The notes below the pieces were generated by a model. It saw only the letters and a list, made by a program, of their open reading frames with translations. It did not search any database and was not told the DNA's origin. 64,000 bases of DNA from Aquitalea aquatilis (lineage in GTDB: Bacteria; Pseudomonadota; Gammaproteobacteria; Burkholderiales; Chromobacteriaceae), in the NCBI RefSeq assembly GCF_005155025.1, contig NZ_CP039731.1, positions 2,666,001 to 2,730,000 on the forward strand, in the 5' to 3' direction. Both the position numbers and the translations under genes were made by a program. Below are positions 46,733 through 64,000 of the stretch, piece after piece (the first letter of the stretch is position 1; each line of letters starts with the position of its first letter).

Positions 46733-46775
46733 GCTTGTCGCGCCCAGGCTTTGCCGCTAGCATGGCTTTTCTTTG

Positions 46776-46868
46776 AGGGAGATGGCATTCCTCCCGCCTG
46801 TTTGCCGCAGCCAGCACGGATGCAGCAACTGCAAACCGCCCATCCGGGCTGATGATGCCTGCAGGCTT
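46776..46868 (+). ncRNA. Fluoride riboswitch (crcB motif) upstream of the CLC-F gene
   Basis: Three signature pieces are seen: P1 GGGAG-ATGGCATTC-CTCCC (46777-46795), the P2 arms GCCC (46838-46841) and GGGC (46846-46849) preceded by AAAC, and the conserved GGGCTGATGATGCC at 46846-46859. ATGCC (46855-46859) can pair with GGCAT (46784-46788) to form the long-range pseudoknot that closes the fluoride pocket. Unusually, P1 and P2 are separated by about 37 bases, where known examples have few. CCTGCAG (46858-46864) can also pair with CTGCAGG (46883-46889), followed by a T-rich stretch, a plausible expression switch. It lies 77 bases before a fluoride-antiporter-type gene. Confidence 0.85.
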
Positions 46869-46944: not shown

Positions 46945-48231
46945 ATGTCTGCCATTTCCCGTTCCGAAACCCTTGCCATGCTGCCGCGCATGAGCAAGCT
47001 GCTGTTACTGGCCTGCCTGGTTGCCTTGCTGGCCGGCTCTGCCTCGGCCTTTTTCCTGCACAGCCTGGTGTGGGCGACGGCCATGCGTGACAGCCACCGT
47101 TATCTGCTGTGTTTGTTGCCGCTGGCCGGCTTTGTGGTTGGCTGGGTCTATCTGCGCTATGGTAGCCGGGTGGAGGCAGGCAATAATCTGTTGATCGACG
47201 AGATTCACGATCCCACCCGCATCGTGCCCTTGCGCATGGTGCCGCTGGTGTTGTGGGGCACGGTGATGTCGCATCTGTTCGGTGCCTCGGTCGGCCGTGA
47301 AGGCACTGCCGTACAGATGGGCGGAGCGCTGGCCGACCAGCTCACCCACCTGCTCAAGCTTGGTAATGCCGACCGGCGCATCTTGCTGATGTGCGGCATT
47401 GCCGCCGGTTTTGCCTCGGTATTCGGCACGCCGCTGGCTGGCGCAGTGTTTGCACTGGAGGTGCTGGCCATTGGCCGCATGCGTTACGACGCCTTGTTTC
47501 CCTGCCTGCTGGCGGCCATTGTGGCCGACCAGGTGGGCCTCGCCTGGGGTGTGCTGCACACTCACTACGCCATTCAACTTATCCCGGCCATCAGCGGCTG
47601 GACCCTGCTGGCTACGCTGGTGGCCGGCGCGCTGTTCGGCCTCACCGGCAAGCTGTTTGCCGACAGCACCCATGCCTTGTCGGCACGCATCAAGCATTAT
47701 GTGAAGTACCCGCCGCTGCGCCCCTTGCTGGGCGGCCTGCTATTGTTGGCCATCGTCTGGCCGACGGGGGCGGATCGCTATATCGGCCTGGGTATTCCGG
47801 TGATTGTGGACGCCTTCCAGCAGCCGCTGGCCCCTTATGATTTTGCCGCCAAGCTGGGCCTGACCGTGCTGTCGCTGGCCAGCGGTTTCAAGGGTGGGGA
47901 AGTGACCCCGCTGTTTTACATCGGTGCCACGCTGGGCAATGCCCTGTCTCCCTTGCTGCATCTGCCGTTTTCCCTGCTGGCCGGGCTGGGTTTTGTCGCC
48001 GTGTTTGCCGGAGCGGCCAATACGCCGCTGGCCTCCACCATCATGGCGATGGAGCTGTTTGGCAGCGAAGTGGGCATCTACGCCGCACTGGCGTGCGTGG
48101 CCAGCTATTATTTTTCTGGTCATAGCGGCATTTACCGCTCACAGCGCATCGCCCACGGCAAGCACCGGCCGTTTCCGCGCGGGCTGAAACTGAGCGAGCT
48201 GGCCGCCTGGCGGCAGCGGCAGGACAAGTAG
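46945..48231 (+). CDS. CLC-F-type fluoride/proton antiporter
   Basis: CLC-family membrane protein of 428 residues. The selectivity regions differ from chloride CLCs in the way described for the fluoride-exporting subfamily: GNNLLI at residues 79-84 replaces GSGIP, and GREGTAVQ at 117-124 replaces GREGP. E119 is the gating glutamate. About ten or more hydrophobic helices follow. The upstream fluoride riboswitch strongly supports fluoride export. The start ATG has a weak AGAAG ribosome-binding site, consistent with riboswitch control of access. Confidence 0.88.
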   Translation: MSAISRSETLAMLPRMSKLLLLACLVALLAGSASAFFLHSLVWATAMRDSHRYLLCLLPLAGFVVGWVYLRYGSRVEAGNNLLIDEIHDPTRIVPLRMVPLVLWGTVMSHLFGASVGREGTAVQMGGALADQLTHLLKLGNADRRILLMCGIAAGFASVFGTPLAGAVFALEVLAIGRMRYDALFPCLLAAIVADQVGLAWGVLHTHYAIQLIPAISGWTLLATLVAGALFGLTGKLFADSTHALSARIKHYVKYPPLRPLLGGLLLLAIVWPTGADRYIGLGIPVIVDAFQQPLAPYDFAAKLGLTVLSLASGFKGGEVTPLFYIGATLGNALSPLLHLPFSLLAGLGFVAVFAGAANTPLASTIMAMELFGSEVGIYAALACVASYYFSGHSGIYRSQRIAHGKHRPFPRGLKLSELAAWRQRQDK

Positions 48232-52747: not shown

Positions 52748-55700
52748 GTGTCCGCAGAGCCGCCATCACCCCCGCAACAAGTCATCCAGCTGCGGCGCGA
52801 TTACAACAGTTGGGTAGCGCGCGAATCACTGGAAGACTACGCCTTGCGCTTTACCCCGCGCCGCTTTCGCCAGTGGTCGCTGTGGCGGGTGGCCAATACC
52901 GCGCTGGGCGGGGCGGCCTCGTTCCTGGTGCTGGAGGCGGTGGGTGCCACCATGCTGGTGCAGGCGGGCTTCTTCAACGCCTTGCTGGCCATCCTGCTGA
53001 CCGGGCTGGTGATCTTGCTGGCCGGCCTGCCGATTTCGGTGTATGCCGCCCGCTACGGCGTGGACATGGATCTGCTGACCCGTGGTGCCGGTTTCGGCTA
53101 TATCGGTTCCACCGTCACCTCGCTGATCTACGCCTCCTTCACCTTCATCTTCTTCGCGCTGGAAGCGGCCATCATGGCCTATGCACTGGAGCTGGGCTTC
53201 GGCATTCCGCCAGTGGCGGGTTACCTGTTGTGCGCCTTGTTGGTGCTGCCGCTGGTCACCCACGGTGTCACCGCCATCAGCCGCCTGCAAAGCTGGACCC
53301 AGCCCTTGTGGCTGCTGCTCTTGCTGCTGCCCTATGGCTTTGTGCTGTGGCAGGAGCCATCTGCCGTGCAGGGCCTGTGGCATTACCCTGGTGCACAGGG
53401 TGCGGGCACGCACTTCGACCTGCGCAGTTTTGGTGCGGCGTTTGCGGTGGGCATTGCGCTGATTACCCAGATGGGCGAGCAGGCCGACTACTTGCGCTTC
53501 ATGCCGCCGCGCACTGCCGGCAATGCGCGCAGCTGGTGGCTGGCCTGCCTGCTGGGCGGGCCGGGCTGGGTGCTGCCGGGCGTGGCCAAGATGCTGGGTG
53601 GGGCGCTACTGGCCTGGCTGGCGCTGCGCAATGCCGTGCCGCTGGCCAAGGCGGTGGACCCGAACCAGATGTATCTGATCGGCTATTCCCATGTATTCAG
53701 CGATGGCCGGCTGGCGATTGCCGCCACCACGCTGTTTGTCATCGTGTCGCAGCTGAAGATCAACGTTACCAATGCCTATGCCGGCAGCCTGGCCTGGTCC
53801 AATTTCTTTTCCCGCCTCACCCACAGCCATCCGGGCCGGGTGGTATGGGTGGTGTTCAATACGCTGATTGCCCTGCTGTTGATGGAGCTGGAAGTATTCC
53901 AGGCGCTGGGACAGGTGCTGGCGCTGTACAGCAATATCGCCATTTCCTGGATCATGGCGGTGGTGGCGGATTTGCTGATCAACAAGCCGCTGGGGCTGAG
54001 TCCGCCCGGCATCGAGTTCCGGCGCGGCTATCTGTACGACATCAATCCGGTGGGCCTGGGCGCGATGGCGCTCTCATCCCTGCTGGCGGTGGCCGCCCAT
54101 CTGGGCGCGCTGGGCGAGACGGCACAGGCGCTGTCACCACTGGTGGCCATGTGTGCAGCGCTGTTGCTGTCGCCGCTGTTCGCCTGGCTCAGTGGCGGGC
54201 GCTATTATCTGGCGCGCCGCCCCTCCGGCATGCAGCAGGCGCACTATCGTTGTGTGCTGTGCCAGCGCGAATACGAGGCTGAAGACATCGTCGGCTGCCC
54301 GGCTTATCAAGGCCATATCTGTTCGCTGTGCTGCACGCTGGATGTGCGCTGCGGCGACCTGTGCAAGCCGCAGGCCACGCTGGCGGCGCAATGGCAGGGG
54401 CTGTTGCAGCGCCTGCTACCGCGTGGCCTGCAACCTTATCTGCAGCGCGGGCTGGGGCATTACCTGCTGCTGATGACCGGCATCACGGCTTTCTTGCTAT
54501 TGCTGCTGGGCCTGTTGTATTTCATCGCCCGGCAGGAGGGGGCGGTGGCCGGCCTGTCCGGCCTGCTGTTCCGCCTGTTTGCCGTGCTGCTGCTGGCCAG
54601 CAGCGTGCTGGCCTGGTGGATGGTGCTGACCCGCAATAGCCGGCAGGTGGCACAGGAGGAATCGCGCCGCCAGACCGGCCTGCTGTGGCAGGAGATCGAC
54701 TCGCACCGCCAGACCGACCTGCTGCTGCAACAGGCGCGTGAAGCCGCCGAACAGGCCAATCAGGCCAAGAGCCGCTATGTCACTACCATCAGCCATGAAT
54801 TGCGCACGCCGCTCAACAGCATGCTGGGTTATGCGCAGATTCTGCATGCGGATGCCAGCCTGCCAGCAGCGGCGCGCCAGGCGGTGGAGGTGGTGTACAA
54901 GAGTGGCGACCATCTGTTGTCGGTGATCGAAGGCACCATGGACATTGCCCGCATCGAAAGCGGCAAGCTGACGCTGGACATGCGGCCGCTGGACTTTACC
55001 GCCTTCATCAAGCAGCTGGTGGCCATGTTCAGCCTGCAGGCGCAGCAAAAGGGGCTGGATTTCCGCTTCGAACCGCTAGGCGAGCTGCCGGCGGTGGTGC
55101 GCGCCGATGAAAAGCGGCTGCGGCAGATCCTGATCAACCTGCTGGGCAATGCGGTCAAGTTCACCCTGCGCGGCGAGGTCAGCCTGGGGCTGCGCTATCA
55201 GCGCGAAATGGCCACCTTTACCATCCGCGACAGCGGGCCGGGTATGGCGGCCGAGGATCAGGCGCGGCTGTTCGAGCCCTTCGAACGTGGCCGCCAGTCG
55301 CAACAGGGTGGCAGTGGGCTGGGGCTGACCATCAGCAAGATGCTGACCGACCTGATGGGCGGCGAAATCCGCCTGGACAGCACGCCGGGGCAGGGCGCGC
55401 TGTTTACCGTGCGGCTGTTCCTGCCGGCGCTGCACGGCCAGCAGGCCGAACAGGCGGTGCCACGGCTGCAGCGCACCGGCTATGCCGGGCCGCGCCGCCG
55501 CTTGCTGCTGGTGGATAACGAGGCGGTGGACCGCGCCATGCTGGGACGCATGCTGCAGCCGCTGGGCTTTGAGCTGGCCGAGGCCAGTAGCGGCGCAGCT
55601 TGTCTGGCGCAGCTGGCCAGCTTTCGCCCGCATGCAGTGTTCATGGACCTGGCCATGCCCGGCATGGACGGCTGGCAAACGCTGCGGGCTATCCGCCAGC

Positions 55701-56137
55701 AGCAGTCCGGCCAGCCCGGTGCGGCACAGCTGGCGGTCATCTCGGCCAATGCCTTTGAAAAAGGCCAGGACAATGATGTCGGCATCGGCATGGCCGATTT
55801 CTTCGTCAAGCCGATCCGGCTGGAAGAAATACTCGACTGGCTGGGGCAGCGGCTGGCGCTGCAATGGCACACCGACAGCCAGCCAGCCGAGGCCGCTGCC
55901 CTGCAAGCACTGCACGCCAGCGCGGCGGCATTGAGCCTGCCACCTGCCGATTTGCTGCAACCCTTGCTGCAAGCGCTGGAGCTGGGCTACCCCAAGGGGG
56001 TGAAAGCGGCCTTGCAGACCTTGGCCAACCAGACCGTCCAGCATGGTGAATTCCTGCGCCGCGCCGAGGCGCTGGCGGCAAACTTTCAATTTGATGCGCT
56101 GCGCAGCCTGGTGCAGCCGGATGAGGACCAAGCCTGA
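52748..56137 (+). CDS. NCS1 permease-histidine kinase-receiver fusion (transporter-type hybrid sensor)
   Basis: Protein of 1129 residues. Residues about 30-490 form an NCS1 nucleobase/allantoin-type permease with about twelve helices (SWVARESLEDYALRF at the start, RGAGFGYIGSTVTSL near 112). Next comes a linker with eight cysteines (C502, C505, C517, C525, C528, C529, C535, C539). Two helices (about 572-625) and a coiled coil follow, then HisKA with ISHELRTPLN (H683), HATPase with N-box INLLGNAVKF, DSGPGM and GSGLGL, a receiver with D967 (FMDLAMPGMDG) and K1021, and a helical C-terminus. The GTG at 52748 has AGGA 7 bases upstream; earlier in-frame starts lie in the LysR gene. Known analogues, such as CbrA, couple a solute transporter to a kinase. 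The ligand is unknown. Confidence 0.88.
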   Translation: MSAEPPSPPQQVIQLRRDYNSWVARESLEDYALRFTPRRFRQWSLWRVANTALGGAASFLVLEAVGATMLVQAGFFNALLAILLTGLVILLAGLPISVYAARYGVDMDLLTRGAGFGYIGSTVTSLIYASFTFIFFALEAAIMAYALELGFGIPPVAGYLLCALLVLPLVTHGVTAISRLQSWTQPLWLLLLLLPYGFVLWQEPSAVQGLWHYPGAQGAGTHFDLRSFGAAFAVGIALITQMGEQADYLRFMPPRTAGNARSWWLACLLGGPGWVLPGVAKMLGGALLAWLALRNAVPLAKAVDPNQMYLIGYSHVFSDGRLAIAATTLFVIVSQLKINVTNAYAGSLAWSNFFSRLTHSHPGRVVWVVFNTLIALLLMELEVFQALGQVLALYSNIAISWIMAVVADLLINKPLGLSPPGIEFRRGYLYDINPVGLGAMALSSLLAVAAHLGALGETAQALSPLVAMCAALLLSPLFAWLSGGRYYLARRPSGMQQAHYRCVLCQREYEAEDIVGCPAYQGHICSLCCTLDVRCGDLCKPQATLAAQWQGLLQRLLPRGLQPYLQRGLGHYLLLMTGITAFLLLLLGLLYFIARQEGAVAGLSGLLFRLFAVLLLASSVLAWWMVLTRNSRQVAQEESRRQTGLLWQEIDSHRQTDLLLQQAREAAEQANQAKSRYVTTISHELRTPLNSMLGYAQILHADASLPAAARQAVEVVYKSGDHLLSVIEGTMDIARIESGKLTLDMRPLDFTAFIKQLVAMFSLQAQQKGLDFRFEPLGELPAVVRADEKRLRQILINLLGNAVKFTLRGEVSLGLRYQREMATFTIRDSGPGMAAEDQARLFEPFERGRQSQQGGSGLGLTISKMLTDLMGGEIRLDSTPGQGALFTVRLFLPALHGQQAEQAVPRLQRTGYAGPRRRLLLVDNEAVDRAMLGRMLQPLGFELAEASSGAACLAQLASFRPHAVFMDLAMPGMDGWQTLRAIRQQQSGQPGAAQLAVISANAFEKGQDNDVGIGMADFFVKPIRLEEILDWLGQRLALQWHTDSQPAEAAALQALHASAAALSLPPADLLQPLLQALELGYPKGVKAALQTLANQTVQHGEFLRRAEALAANFQFDALRSLVQPDEDQA

Positions 56138-57057
56138 TGGACAAGGCCGCACAACGCAGCGCACTGGTGCTGATCGTGGATGATGTGCCGGACAATCTGC
56201 AGTTGCTGCACGATGCGCTGGATGCCGCCGGCCACACCGTGCTGGTGGCCACCCATGGCGAGGCCGCCCTGCAACGCGCCCGGCTCAGCCTGCCGGATGT
56301 GATCCTGCTGGACGCGGTCATGCCGGGGATGGACGGTTTCGAAGTAGCACGGCGGCTGAAGGCGGATTTTGTCACCCGGCCCATTCCCATCGTATTCATG
56401 ACCGGCCTGACCGAGAGCGAACACGTGGTGGCGGCTTTTGCCGCCGGCGGGGCCGACTATGTCACCAAACCGCTGCGTCCGCCGGAAGTGCTGGCGCGCA
56501 TTGCCGCACATACTGCCAGCGCCCGCCAGATGCAGCAGGCGCGCAGCGCGCTGGATGCCTTTGGCCAGGCCACACTGGCGCTGGACCCGCACAACGGCCG
56601 CCTGCTATGGCAGACCGCGCTGGCCCGCCAGCTGTTGCAGCGCTATTTTGCGGTGGCAGGTGAACAGGCACCGGAGGCGCTGCTGCGCTGGGCCTTCAAC
56701 GCCCAGCAGGCCAGACAGGCCGGGCAGGAGCTGCCGGGGCAGTGGCCGGGTGAGGCCGGCCAGCGGCTGTTGGCCAGTTTTCATCTGGCCCCCGGCGAGC
56801 CGGAGTGGCTGGTGGTATTGCGCGAAGATGGTGTGCAATCCAGCGTGGCCGCGCTGGTGGCGGCGTTCCGCCTGACCCAGCGCGAGGCCGAGGTGTTGCA
56901 CTGGCTGAGCCTGGGCAAGACCAATCGCGATATTGCCGACATCCTTGGCATGAGCCCGCGCACCGTCAACAAGCATCTGGAGCATGTATTCGCCAAGCTG
57001 GGTGTGGAAACCCGTACCTCGGCGGCAGCACTGGCGCTGGGGCGCGGGCATGCTTAG
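56137..57057 (+). CDS. LuxR/NarL-type response regulator paired with the permease-kinase
   Basis: Response regulator of 306 residues. The receiver spans about 10-130, with DD at 15-16, phosphoacceptor in VILLDAVMPGMDG (D60), T90 region FMTG and K110 (VTKPL). A middle region of about 100 residues has no recognised domain. The LuxR-type helix-turn-helix at the C-terminus is clear (LTQREAEVLHWLSLGKTNRDIADILGMSPRTVNKHLEHVFAKLGV in parts). Its ATG overlaps the kinase stop (TGATGG context), so it is surely the kinase's output partner. Target genes are unknown; the urt genes 5 kb downstream are candidates. Confidence 0.9.
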   Translation: MDKAAQRSALVLIVDDVPDNLQLLHDALDAAGHTVLVATHGEAALQRARLSLPDVILLDAVMPGMDGFEVARRLKADFVTRPIPIVFMTGLTESEHVVAAFAAGGADYVTKPLRPPEVLARIAAHTASARQMQQARSALDAFGQATLALDPHNGRLLWQTALARQLLQRYFAVAGEQAPEALLRWAFNAQQARQAGQELPGQWPGEAGQRLLASFHLAPGEPEWLVVLREDGVQSSVAALVAAFRLTQREAEVLHWLSLGKTNRDIADILGMSPRTVNKHLEHVFAKLGVETRTSAAALALGRGHA

Positions 57058-62047: not shown

Positions 62048-62063
62048 TACGTCATGTAACGTA
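62048..62063 (+). promoter_or_regulatory. Possible operator upstream of urtA
   Basis: TACGT-CATGTA-ACGTA, a 5-base inverted repeat separated by 6 bases, 73-88 bases before the urtA start. TACGTA-like half sites are common for LuxR-type response regulators, and one is encoded 5 kb upstream. Weak evidence. Confidence 0.35.
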
Positions 62064-62135: not shown

Positions 62136-63404
62136 ATGGCATCTACTCGTCGCATGTTTCTGAAGTCCGCTCCGCTGGTCCTGGCCGCCGCCGGCCTCGT
62201 GTCCATGCCAGCCTTTGCCGCCGACACCATCAAGGTAGGGGTGTTGCACTCCCTGTCTGGCACCATGGCCATTTCGGAAACCTCGCTCAAGGACATGGCG
62301 CTGTTTGCCATCGACCAGATCAATGCCAAGGGCGGCGTGCTGGGCAAGAAGCTGGAACCGGTGGTGGTGGACCCGGCCTCCAACTGGCCGCTGTTTGCCG
62401 AAAAGGCGCGTCAGCTGCTGAGCAAGGACAAGGTGGCGGTGACCTTCGGCTGTTGGACTTCGGTCTCGCGCAAGTCGGTGCTGCCGGTGTTCGAGGAGTT
62501 GAACGGCCTGCTGTTCTACCCGGTGCAGTACGAGGGTGAGGAAATGTCACCCAATGTGTTCTACACCGGTGCTGCGCCCAACCAGCAGGCCATTCCGGCG
62601 GTGGAGTACCTGATGAGCAAGGAGGGCGGCAGTGCCAAGCGCTTCTTCCTGCTGGGGACCGACTATGTCTACCCGCGCACCACCAACAAGATCCTGCGGG
62701 CCTTCCTGCACTCCAAGGGGGTGAAGGACGAAAACATCCAGGAGATGTACACCCCCTTCGGCCACAGCGATTACCAGACCATCGTCGGCAACATCAAGAA
62801 GTTTGCCGCCGGCGGCAAGACTGCCGTCATCTCCACCATTAATGGCGACTCCAACGTGCCTTTCTACAAGGAACTGGGCAATCAGGGCCTGAAGGCGACC
62901 GACGTGCCGGTGGTGGCCTTCTCGGTGGGTGAGGAAGAACTCAAGGGCATCGATGCCAAGCCGCTGGTGGGCCATCTGGCCGCCTGGAACTACTTCATGA
63001 GCGTGAAGAACCCGGTCAACAGCAAGTGGATTGCCGACTACCGCGCCTGGGCCAAGAAGAAGGGCCTGGCCAATGCCGACAAGCTGGTCACCAACGACCC
63101 GATGGAAGCCACTTATGTGGGTATCAATATGTGGGCCGAAGCGGTGAAGAAAGCCGGCACCACCGATGTGGCCGCCGTGACCAAGGCCATGGCCGGTATC
63201 AAGCTGGCCGCGCCGTCCGGCTTCACCCTGGAAATGGACCCGAAAAACCATCACCTGCACAAGCCGGTGATGATTGGCGAGATTCAGTCCAATGGCCAGT
63301 TCTCGGTGGTGTGGAAGACCAAGACCCCGATCCGCGCCCAGCCGTGGAGCCCCTTTATCCCGGGGAATGACAAGAAGCCCGACACCCCGGTCAAGAGCAA
63401 GTAA
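62136..63404 (+). CDS. urtA: Urea ABC transporter substrate-binding protein
   Basis: Binding protein of 422 residues for urea or short-chain amides. The signal peptide has a twin-arginine motif (STRRMFLK) and a hydrophobic core ending AFA, indicating folded export by Tat. UrtA landmarks follow: TIKVGVLHSLSGTMAISETS, FGCWTSVSRKSVLPVFEE, LLFYPVQYEGEE and YVYPRTTNKILR. ATG 62136 has AGGGGA 5 bases upstream; an upstream in-frame start at 62019 gives no signal. urtB follows after a large hairpin. Confidence 0.94.
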   Translation: MASTRRMFLKSAPLVLAAAGLVSMPAFAADTIKVGVLHSLSGTMAISETSLKDMALFAIDQINAKGGVLGKKLEPVVVDPASNWPLFAEKARQLLSKDKVAVTFGCWTSVSRKSVLPVFEELNGLLFYPVQYEGEEMSPNVFYTGAAPNQQAIPAVEYLMSKEGGSAKRFFLLGTDYVYPRTTNKILRAFLHSKGVKDENIQEMYTPFGHSDYQTIVGNIKKFAAGGKTAVISTINGDSNVPFYKELGNQGLKATDVPVVAFSVGEEELKGIDAKPLVGHLAAWNYFMSVKNPVNSKWIADYRAWAKKKGLANADKLVTNDPMEATYVGINMWAEAVKKAGTTDVAAVTKAMAGIKLAAPSGFTLEMDPKNHHLHKPVMIGEIQSNGQFSVVWKTKTPIRAQPWSPFIPGNDKKPDTPVKSK

Positions 63405-63491
63405 CAGCGGCTGACAACATCGCTGCTGCGCCTGTTTCTCAGCCGCTTTGATTGATTGTTCCAAGTGCAGTACGGGACGACTCGCGCCCTT

Positions 63492-63538
63492 GACCGCCAG
63501 GCCGCCCTGCCCGCAACAGGCAGGGCGGCCTGGCGGTC
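63492..63538 (+). other. Perfect 20-bp hairpin between urtA and urtB
   Basis: Arms at 63492-63511 and 63519-63538 are fully complementary (GC-rich, beginning GACCGCCAGG), with a 7-base loop. No T-run follows and urtB starts 21 bases later, so it is more likely a 3'-end stabiliser or partial terminator that raises urtA over urtB than a full stop. Confidence 0.85.
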
Positions 63539-63558
63539 CATTCAGTAAGGAATGCACC

Positions 63559-64000
63559 ATGCAATTGTTCAAACCCTTGCTCCTGCTGCTGTTGCTGTAC
63601 AGCGGCCTGACGGCGGCCGGCCCGCTGGCCGAGCTAGCCCATGCCGACCCGGCCGACCGTGCCGGCCTGATCGAGGGCTGGACCATCCAGCCCGATGCCG
63701 CCCGCCGTCAGGCGGTGGCCGCACTGGAAGAGGGCAGGCTGTTCGCCAGCAGCGACGGCAAGCACATGCTGTTGCAAGCCGAGGACGGCAAGCTGAGCGA
63801 TGTCGATACTGCCCAGGCTGTCGCCGGCGATGCCAGCAGTCTGGACGCGCAGCCAGTCAACAACAGCGTGCGCAGCGCGCTGCAAGCCTTTCATGCCGCC
63901 AGCGATCTGGCCGACCCGGAGTGCAGCAAACGGCTGGCGGCCATCCAGTCCTTGCAGGACAGTGCCAACCCGGCCCTGCTGCCCTTGCTACTGAGTCGGC
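63559..64000 (+). CDS. urtB: Urea ABC transporter permease UrtB, N-terminal part
   Basis: The frame opens at ATG 63559 (AAGGA 7 bases upstream) and runs to the window end without a stop: 147 residues seen. A signal peptide (LFKPLLLLLLLYSGLTAAG) is followed by a soluble region rich in Ala, Asp and Leu (for example RRQAVAALEEGRLFASSDG), which matches the extended periplasmic N-terminus found in many UrtB proteins before the permease helices. The membrane part lies outside the window. Assignment rests on position after urtA and on this extension. Confidence 0.82.
   Translation, partial: MQLFKPLLLLLLLYSGLTAAGPLAELAHADPADRAGLIEGWTIQPDAARRQAVAALEEGRLFASSDGKHMLLQAEDGKLSDVDTAQAVAGDASSLDAQPVNNSVRSALQAFHAASDLADPECSKRLAAIQSLQDSANPALLPLLLSR

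Follow-up and report, generated by a model that had tools for sequence, protein, structure and literature searches.

A transporter-fused sensor kinase with an eight-cysteine module as a probable urea or amide transceptor in Aquitalea aquatilis

A 64,000-nucleotide stretch of the Aquitalea aquatilis genome (NZ_CP039731.1, positions 2,666,001 to 2,730,000; hereafter the window) carries a gene for a hybrid sensor histidine kinase (P0001) fused to a permease domain, followed by the gene for a LuxR-type response regulator (P0002). We consider it likely that the two proteins form a two-component system in which the permease serves as a transceptor for urea, or for urea and short-chain amides. This interpretation starts from features that can be read in the sequence: the domain architecture, the fusion, the catalytic residues, the proximity of urt, urease and amidase genes, and a conserved repeat upstream of those genes. 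An original prediction, made from the DNA alone, had proposed a transporter-kinase in the manner of CbrA that senses a nitrogen compound, and this general idea is supported. Its preferred ligands (a nucleobase, hydantoin or allantoin) are not, since gene neighbourhoods, kinase-free relatives and the shared putative operator all point to urea and short-chain amides.

The predicted order of parts in a single frame (permease, cysteine module, two helices, HisKA/HATPase and receiver) was confirmed by Pfam, by the structure model and by comparison with relatives. Pfam places HisKA at residues 673-739, HATPase_c at 787-892 and Response_reg at 920-1030 of P0001, and REC at 11-122 and GerE at 246-300 of P0002. 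The catalytic residues H683 and D967 of the kinase and D59 of the regulator are present. The domain content is that of a hybrid histidine kinase (HisKA, HATPase_c and receiver) with a LuxR-type partner (REC and GerE). The P0002 start at 56137 shares one base with the kinase stop codon, in agreement with the overlapping regulator gene described previously. The P0001 frame stays open back to 52421, upstream of the GTG at 52748; homologue matches start at residues 1-10 and an AGGA lies directly before this GTG. Approximately 12 membrane helices of the permease were counted from the model (hydropathy alone flags 9), and the second of the two extra helices is predicted to continue into the kinase coiled coil.

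Among the best 80 of at least 582 relatives, which are used for all close-relative counts below, the permease and kinase are fused in one open frame in 79. This rules out a frameshift artefact, named beforehand as the result that would undo the fusion. In Aquitalea pelogenes (L044) the kinase frame is broken near residue 492 and the cysteine pattern is kept in another frame, while the contig ends inside the kinase in three relatives (L013, L018 and L068). The closest named relative, A. aquatica, is 96.5% identical across the whole kinase. We also surveyed 398 sampled Pseudomonadota genomes from 213 genera and found matches in 52 genomes and 37 genera. All but one of the 58 survey matches lie in frames of 894-1365 amino acids, the remaining one being a distant permease of 552 amino acids. 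Five of the 52 genomes encode two such kinases (G225, G246, G379, G158 and G091); the second copy in G246 adjoins urt-fmdA, and the ligand range may differ between the two copies of one genome. Rhizobia also carry the kinase, as do many Klebsiella plasmids. Klebsiella accounts for 342 of 526 plasmid records that match the permease part, a few of which are kinase-free forms.

The linkage to urea and amide genes is seen first in the window, where urtA lies approximately 5 kb downstream of the kinase-regulator pair as the first gene of a urt-ure run that extends past the window end (ureC is at window coordinate 69352). A formamidase gene (PF03069) is absent from this genome. A survey of the gene neighbourhoods of homologues, proposed earlier as a check, revealed that urt, urease, formamidase and amidase genes recur, and each of the seven annotated regions has at least one of these types close to the kinase. 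The kinase gene is divergent from urease genes on a Mitsuaria plasmid, divergent from urtABCDE-formamidase on Chelatococcus, Burkholderia vietnamiensis and Klebsiella (L092) plasmids, and divergent from urt genes, with three other genes between, on a Sinorhizobium plasmid; on a Sphingobium plasmid it stands downstream of urease. Urease or urt genes are nearby in 53 of the 80 close relatives (45 urease, 13 urt). At the genome level, UrtA exceeded the curated cut-off in every one of 40 kinase-bearing genomes (those listed first among the 52) and in 5 of 24 genomes known to be kinase-free (Fisher test, 5e-12, a value that is too favourable because the genomes counted are related, as is the expectation given below for the repeat). 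A genome was called kinase-free when it had no match at E 1e-20 in the 398-genome survey, and the comparison leaves out five genomes in which kinase status was not established (G411, G426, G430, G435 and G446). A urtA gene lies within 20 kb of a kinase in 37 of the 40 kinase-bearing genomes. As a separate observation, loci of the Zoogloea type (L048, L054, L055, L060, L062, L071 and L078) have other conserved neighbours in common (clusters 12, 14 and 16), and no urea genes nearby.

An inverted repeat upstream of these genes provides a second line of evidence. It was first spotted by eye in intergenic regions, after counting perfect dyads upstream had led nowhere, and we defined an exact form (TACGT-N6-ACGTA) and a relaxed form (TACGY-N6-RCGTA). 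The Aquitalea site is TACGTCATGTAACGTA. In 1.48 Mb of loci, TACGT and ACGTA are separated by six nucleotides in 18 matches (three of which are the same window site), compared with 0 or 1 match at each other gap from 0 to 13. The 40 kinase-bearing genomes contain 58 exact sites, 27 of which (in 20 genomes) are within 20 kb of a kinase where 0.5 would be expected. At a distance of 4.5-7.9 kb downstream of the kinase start, the close relatives have 14 sites, whereas gaps 2-5 and 7-10 together yield three. The repeat is also found upstream of fmdA in four loci (L179-L181 and L190) and upstream of a nitrilase-superfamily gene, which by our reading is an aliphatic amidase, in L183 (10 kb away) and L188 (on a different contig from the kinase). 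It is the placing of the repeat, not its raw count, that is special. The second exact site of the A. aquatilis genome (G000:C1:2495248-2495263; L197:5249) is approximately 60 bp before a methyl-accepting chemotaxis-like gene and may be chance.

We propose that P0002 would bind this repeat. The alternative that survives best, which we nevertheless regard as unlikely, accepts the kinase-regulator pair as real and assigns the repeat to a different regulator acting on urt and amidase genes. Of 69 UrtA matches, we dropped three below the cut-off, leaving 66 (39 linked to a kinase and 27 unlinked). The relaxed repeat stands upstream of 28 of the 39 kinase-linked urtA genes (0.2% in shuffled 650-bp regions), and the 11 kinase-linked promoters without it speak for another regulator. 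Against such a regulator, the repeat is found at just 4 of the 27 unlinked urtA genes, whose genomes all belong to a single family within the order of the window, and it is absent upstream of urtA in all five known kinase-free genomes and in three genomes of unestablished kinase status. Furthermore, an inverted repeat is the type of site reported for CrbR, a LuxR-family protein in which activation requires an inverted repeat upstream of the targets (PMC5715377).

The module between the permease and the kinase contains all eight cysteines at exactly the residues predicted (C502, C505, C517, C525, C528, C529, C535 and C539), out of 12 in the whole protein. The pattern spans 38 residues and has identical spacing in all 80 close relatives and in all 30 survey loci compared (the top 30 among the 58 survey matches, the window itself included), giving 110 of 110 loci, which rules out chance cysteines. 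Homologues without the cysteines, named earlier as a result that would count against the module, were seen among kinase-free permeases only and in none of the 110 kinase loci. The predicted shape is beta-rich and zinc-finger-like, with hairpins and a short helix, and gave weak matches to cross-brace zinc fingers (FYVE, RING, PHD, ZZ and LIM). Comparison of the module with known families gave no match above the cut-off, and a sequence search of the PDB with it was also fruitless. In the moderate-confidence models no four-helix STAC domain follows the transporter; the beta-rich cysteine module and two long helices stand there instead. When 299 genomes were searched for the module, with up to 18 candidates scored per genome, the 42 strong matches all fell within frames of 894-1247 amino acids and, compared by eye, coincided with survey kinase positions; this rules out a widespread domain of other proteins. 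Six marginal matches with E above 0.001 were treated as chance. From the predicted shape, metal binding is plausible, and the module is probably a zinc-finger-like cytoplasmic cap holding two metals.

Nine kinase-free permeases could be aligned through this region, with eight of the cysteines in one, four or five in five, and one in three. These relatives suggest a pairing of the sensor cysteines into 502/505/525/528 and 517/529/535/539, which would make two metal sites. Since permeases that lack a kinase already end in the module, whether complete, with fewer cysteines or with hardly any, it is part of the transporter and not an insertion ahead of the kinase. The same observation bears on the idea that the module itself senses nickel, zinc or redox state and governs urease, a nickel enzyme. 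The fixed spacing of the eight cysteines in every kinase locus and the frequency of urease genes as neighbours would suit such a role. We judge it improbable, given that the same module occurs in kinases beside formamidase genes where the region read contains no urease, that it can be reduced or nearly cysteine-free in kinase-free permeases, and that its predicted shape, through the weak matches above, resembles structural zinc fingers. No support was found for a redox role, including the redox checkpoint originally suggested.

The NCS1 assignment of the permease held in one respect and failed in another. Pfam PF02133 does not match the sensor at E up to 1, and at E up to 10 it matches neither the permease part of the sensor nor two free permeases nor the permease parts of two other kinases. 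When a 12-member family profile was aligned with hhalign to seven PF02133-positive NCS1 proteins alone, however, the two aligned over 393 columns (Prob 98.7, E 2e-16), and in a fold comparison of the AlphaFold model the nearest structures were CodB and Mhp1, with moderate TM (template modelling) scores. With Foldseek, SSS proteins and further members of the superfamily were also matched, at weaker E than NCS1, the superfamily fold being common to both; Pfam detects no SSS domain in the sensor, and a PDB sequence search with the transporter returned nothing useful. The profile and fold comparisons thus support placing the permease on a distant branch of NCS1.

In six of the seven annotated cases, kinase-free relatives of this permease are encoded within or next to genes for urease, formamidase or amidase. 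One is encoded directly after ureG in Klebsiella (L285:3971-5578), where it is annotated as a 'cytosine permease'; it is a candidate urea permease. On a Methylovirgula plasmid (L287:260-6593), a fused kinase, a regulator and a free eight-cysteine permease occur together beside an aliphatic amidase gene. Across 36 sensor and nine free-permease rows, 45 polar or aromatic positions are common to the two groups, being invariant or all but one, and 16 positions differ consistently between them. The 45 shared positions suggest the same ligand class for sensors and free permeases. In an unrooted tree of 45 rows the fused proteins form a single split (support 100/99), and since the tree is unrooted a single fusion could also be read as kinase loss. 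This tree leaves out L107 and L125 (wrong frame), L117 (mostly empty) and G193 C40, a free permease that has diverged strongly; when these four are included, for 49 rows in all, the fused proteins do not form a single split.

Urt and urease genes are known to be nitrogen-controlled, and we take SMb20602-SMb20605 to be the urt genes of Sinorhizobium meliloti, SMb20605 probably being urtA. In an S. meliloti tolC mutant these genes were lowered together with nitrate and ammonium transport genes (PMC2912261). Such control would fit a permease that is a vestigial anchor, on a kinase that reads general nitrogen status (ammonium, PII or Ntr). This explanation has little to recommend it, as the polar and aromatic positions shared with free permeases are unlike a vestige and Pfam detects in the kinase neither PAS nor GAF nor any other input domain. 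Least likely of all is a classical NCS1 substrate such as a nucleobase, hydantoin or allantoin as ligand: the NCS1-like domain, a fold nearest to the cytosine carrier CodB and the hydantoin carrier Mhp1, and the annotation of some kinase-free relatives as 'allantoin permease' or 'cytosine permease' speak for it, but those annotations rest on distant likeness, as PF02133 has no match, and we set it aside on the gene neighbourhoods of all seven annotated regions and the presence of UrtA in all 40 kinase-bearing genomes.

Several observations, in addition to the relatedness of the genomes counted, weigh against a urea or amide transceptor acting through the repeat. Twenty-seven of the 80 close-relative loci have no urease, urt or amidase gene in flanks of at most approximately 6 kb; 18 of these are full-length stretches, with approximately 6 kb to each side of the match, and three are from Aquitalea, whose loci fall in this group because urtA sits farther away. 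A backward control pattern gave 117 sites in the 40 genomes against 58 for the repeat, so that the raw count is not enriched, and the 4.36 Mb A. aquatilis genome has four relaxed sites compared with 21 backward-control sites. The exact site is absent from 11 of the 40 kinase-bearing genomes, and 13 exact sites are spread over 9 of 20 kinase-free genomes; a fuller half (TACGTC or GACGTA) is present in 1 of these 13 sites and in 35 of the 58 in kinase-bearing genomes. Of the 58, 31 are far from a kinase, and when six far sites were inspected one stood before an amidase gene and five (L184-L187 and L197) had no urea or amide gene. A different regulator could bind the repeat. The kinase promoter in S. 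meliloti is bound by PhaR (PMC12542648), which indicates that other inputs exist. Finally, both structure models are of moderate confidence (mean pLDDT, AlphaFold's own confidence score, of 72.7 for the AlphaFold model and 71 for the second).

In the urea or amide transceptor system that we favour, urea or a small amide would bind the NCS1-like permease domain, with or without transport. A change in the shape of the permease would then pass through the cytoplasmic cysteine module and the two extra membrane helices to the kinase coiled coil. The kinase would phosphorylate the LuxR-type regulator, which would bind TACGY-N6-RCGTA and activate urtABCDE and the linked urease genes and, in other genomes, formamidase and amidase genes. 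We infer the ligand, its binding in the permease core, the direction of control, the phosphotransfer, the contact between regulator and operator, and the metal content. A broader proposal, which we put forward tentatively and hold to be somewhat more likely wrong than right, is an undescribed family of urea and short-amide transceptors with a single origin from a new NCS1 branch of urea and amide permeases. Its kinase-free members would include the Klebsiella permease after ureG, and its members would combine carrying and signalling, couple the two through a novel two-metal cap, and control a regulon marked by TACGY-N6-RCGTA.

The coordinates of the features are collected in Table 1. Elsewhere in the window, a fluoride riboswitch (Rfam RF01734, 45.3 bits) lies at 46769-46868 (+), upstream of the frame at 46945-48231.

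Table 1. Features of the kinase-regulator locus and the downstream urt genes, in window coordinates.
Feature	Coordinates	Strand	Basis or remark
Transporter-fused hybrid sensor histidine kinase P0001	52748..56137	+	1129 amino acids, GTG start
NCS1-like permease domain, residues ~28-485	52829..54202	+	hhalign, fold comparison
Eight-cysteine module, residues 499-541	54242..54370	+	predicted two hairpins and short helix
Two further helices, residues 559-617	54422..54598	+	structure model
HisKA domain	54764..54964	+	Pfam; phospho-acceptor H683 in SHELRTP
HATPase_c domain	55106..55423	+	Pfam
C-terminal receiver domain of kinase	55505..55837	+	Pfam; D967 in MDLAMPG
Cognate response regulator P0002, REC and LuxR-type (GerE) helix-turn-helix	56137..57057	+	306 amino acids, Pfam
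Inverted repeat, proposed regulator operator	62048..62063	+	~70 bp before urtA ATG
urtA, urea ABC transporter substrate-binding protein	62136..63404	+	TIGR03407, 586 bits; start codon chosen by us
urtB frame start, cut by window end	63448..64000	+	putative start codon

In the environment, nitrogen is commonly available as urea and small amides, and the urt, urease and amidase genes tend to be regarded as controlled merely by nitrogen starvation. A dedicated sensor offers a testable pathway for urea and amide sensing, together with a putative operator for finding its regulon, and it suggests what relatives currently labelled 'cytosine permease' or 'allantoin permease' may do. It would also be a second class of transporter coupled to a kinase, comparable with CbrA, and an S. 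meliloti orthologue is available. The pair SMb20609/SMb20610 is orthologous and is tied to L096, from another strain, by a printed promoter site: the 21-bp PhaR site of the SMb20609 promoter stands before the L096 kinase gene, ending 74 bp from the annotated start (PMC12542648). The same source describes SMb20609 as a PhaR target of unknown function.

Kinases fused to transporters are already known (CbrA, CrbS and an Amt kinase); an NCS1-like branch, a cysteine cap replacing STAC and a urea/amide regulon were not found in print in our searches of open-licence papers. The gene set of several kinase-linked loci equals that of the urtABCDE-fmdA-fmdB-amiE locus of Pseudomonas veronii Yu15, in which AmiC/AmiR are reported absent and for which the main text never uses the term 'histidine kinase' (PMC13209695). 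Compared with the NCS1 transporters CodB and Mhp1, the permease domain has approximately 13-16% identity, which is under Pfam detection, and the sensor adds a cysteine tail and likely has urea or amide ligands. The Amt-fused sensor kinase of Kuenenia likewise joins a transporter for a nitrogen compound to a histidine kinase, but has an ammonium transporter domain and ammonium as signal (PMC5764959). The SLC5/STAC histidine kinases CbrA and CrbS, as described, also fuse a solute-transporter domain to a histidine kinase (PMC13022988, PMC5715377), and the LuxR-type partner in CrbS/R depends on an imperfect inverted repeat located upstream of genes for acetate use (PMC5715377). In the system described here, the transporter is NCS1-like whereas theirs is SLC5, the cysteine module and two helices replace the four-helix STAC domain, the linked genes are for urea and amides, and the repeat is unlike the printed ACTU motif sequences.

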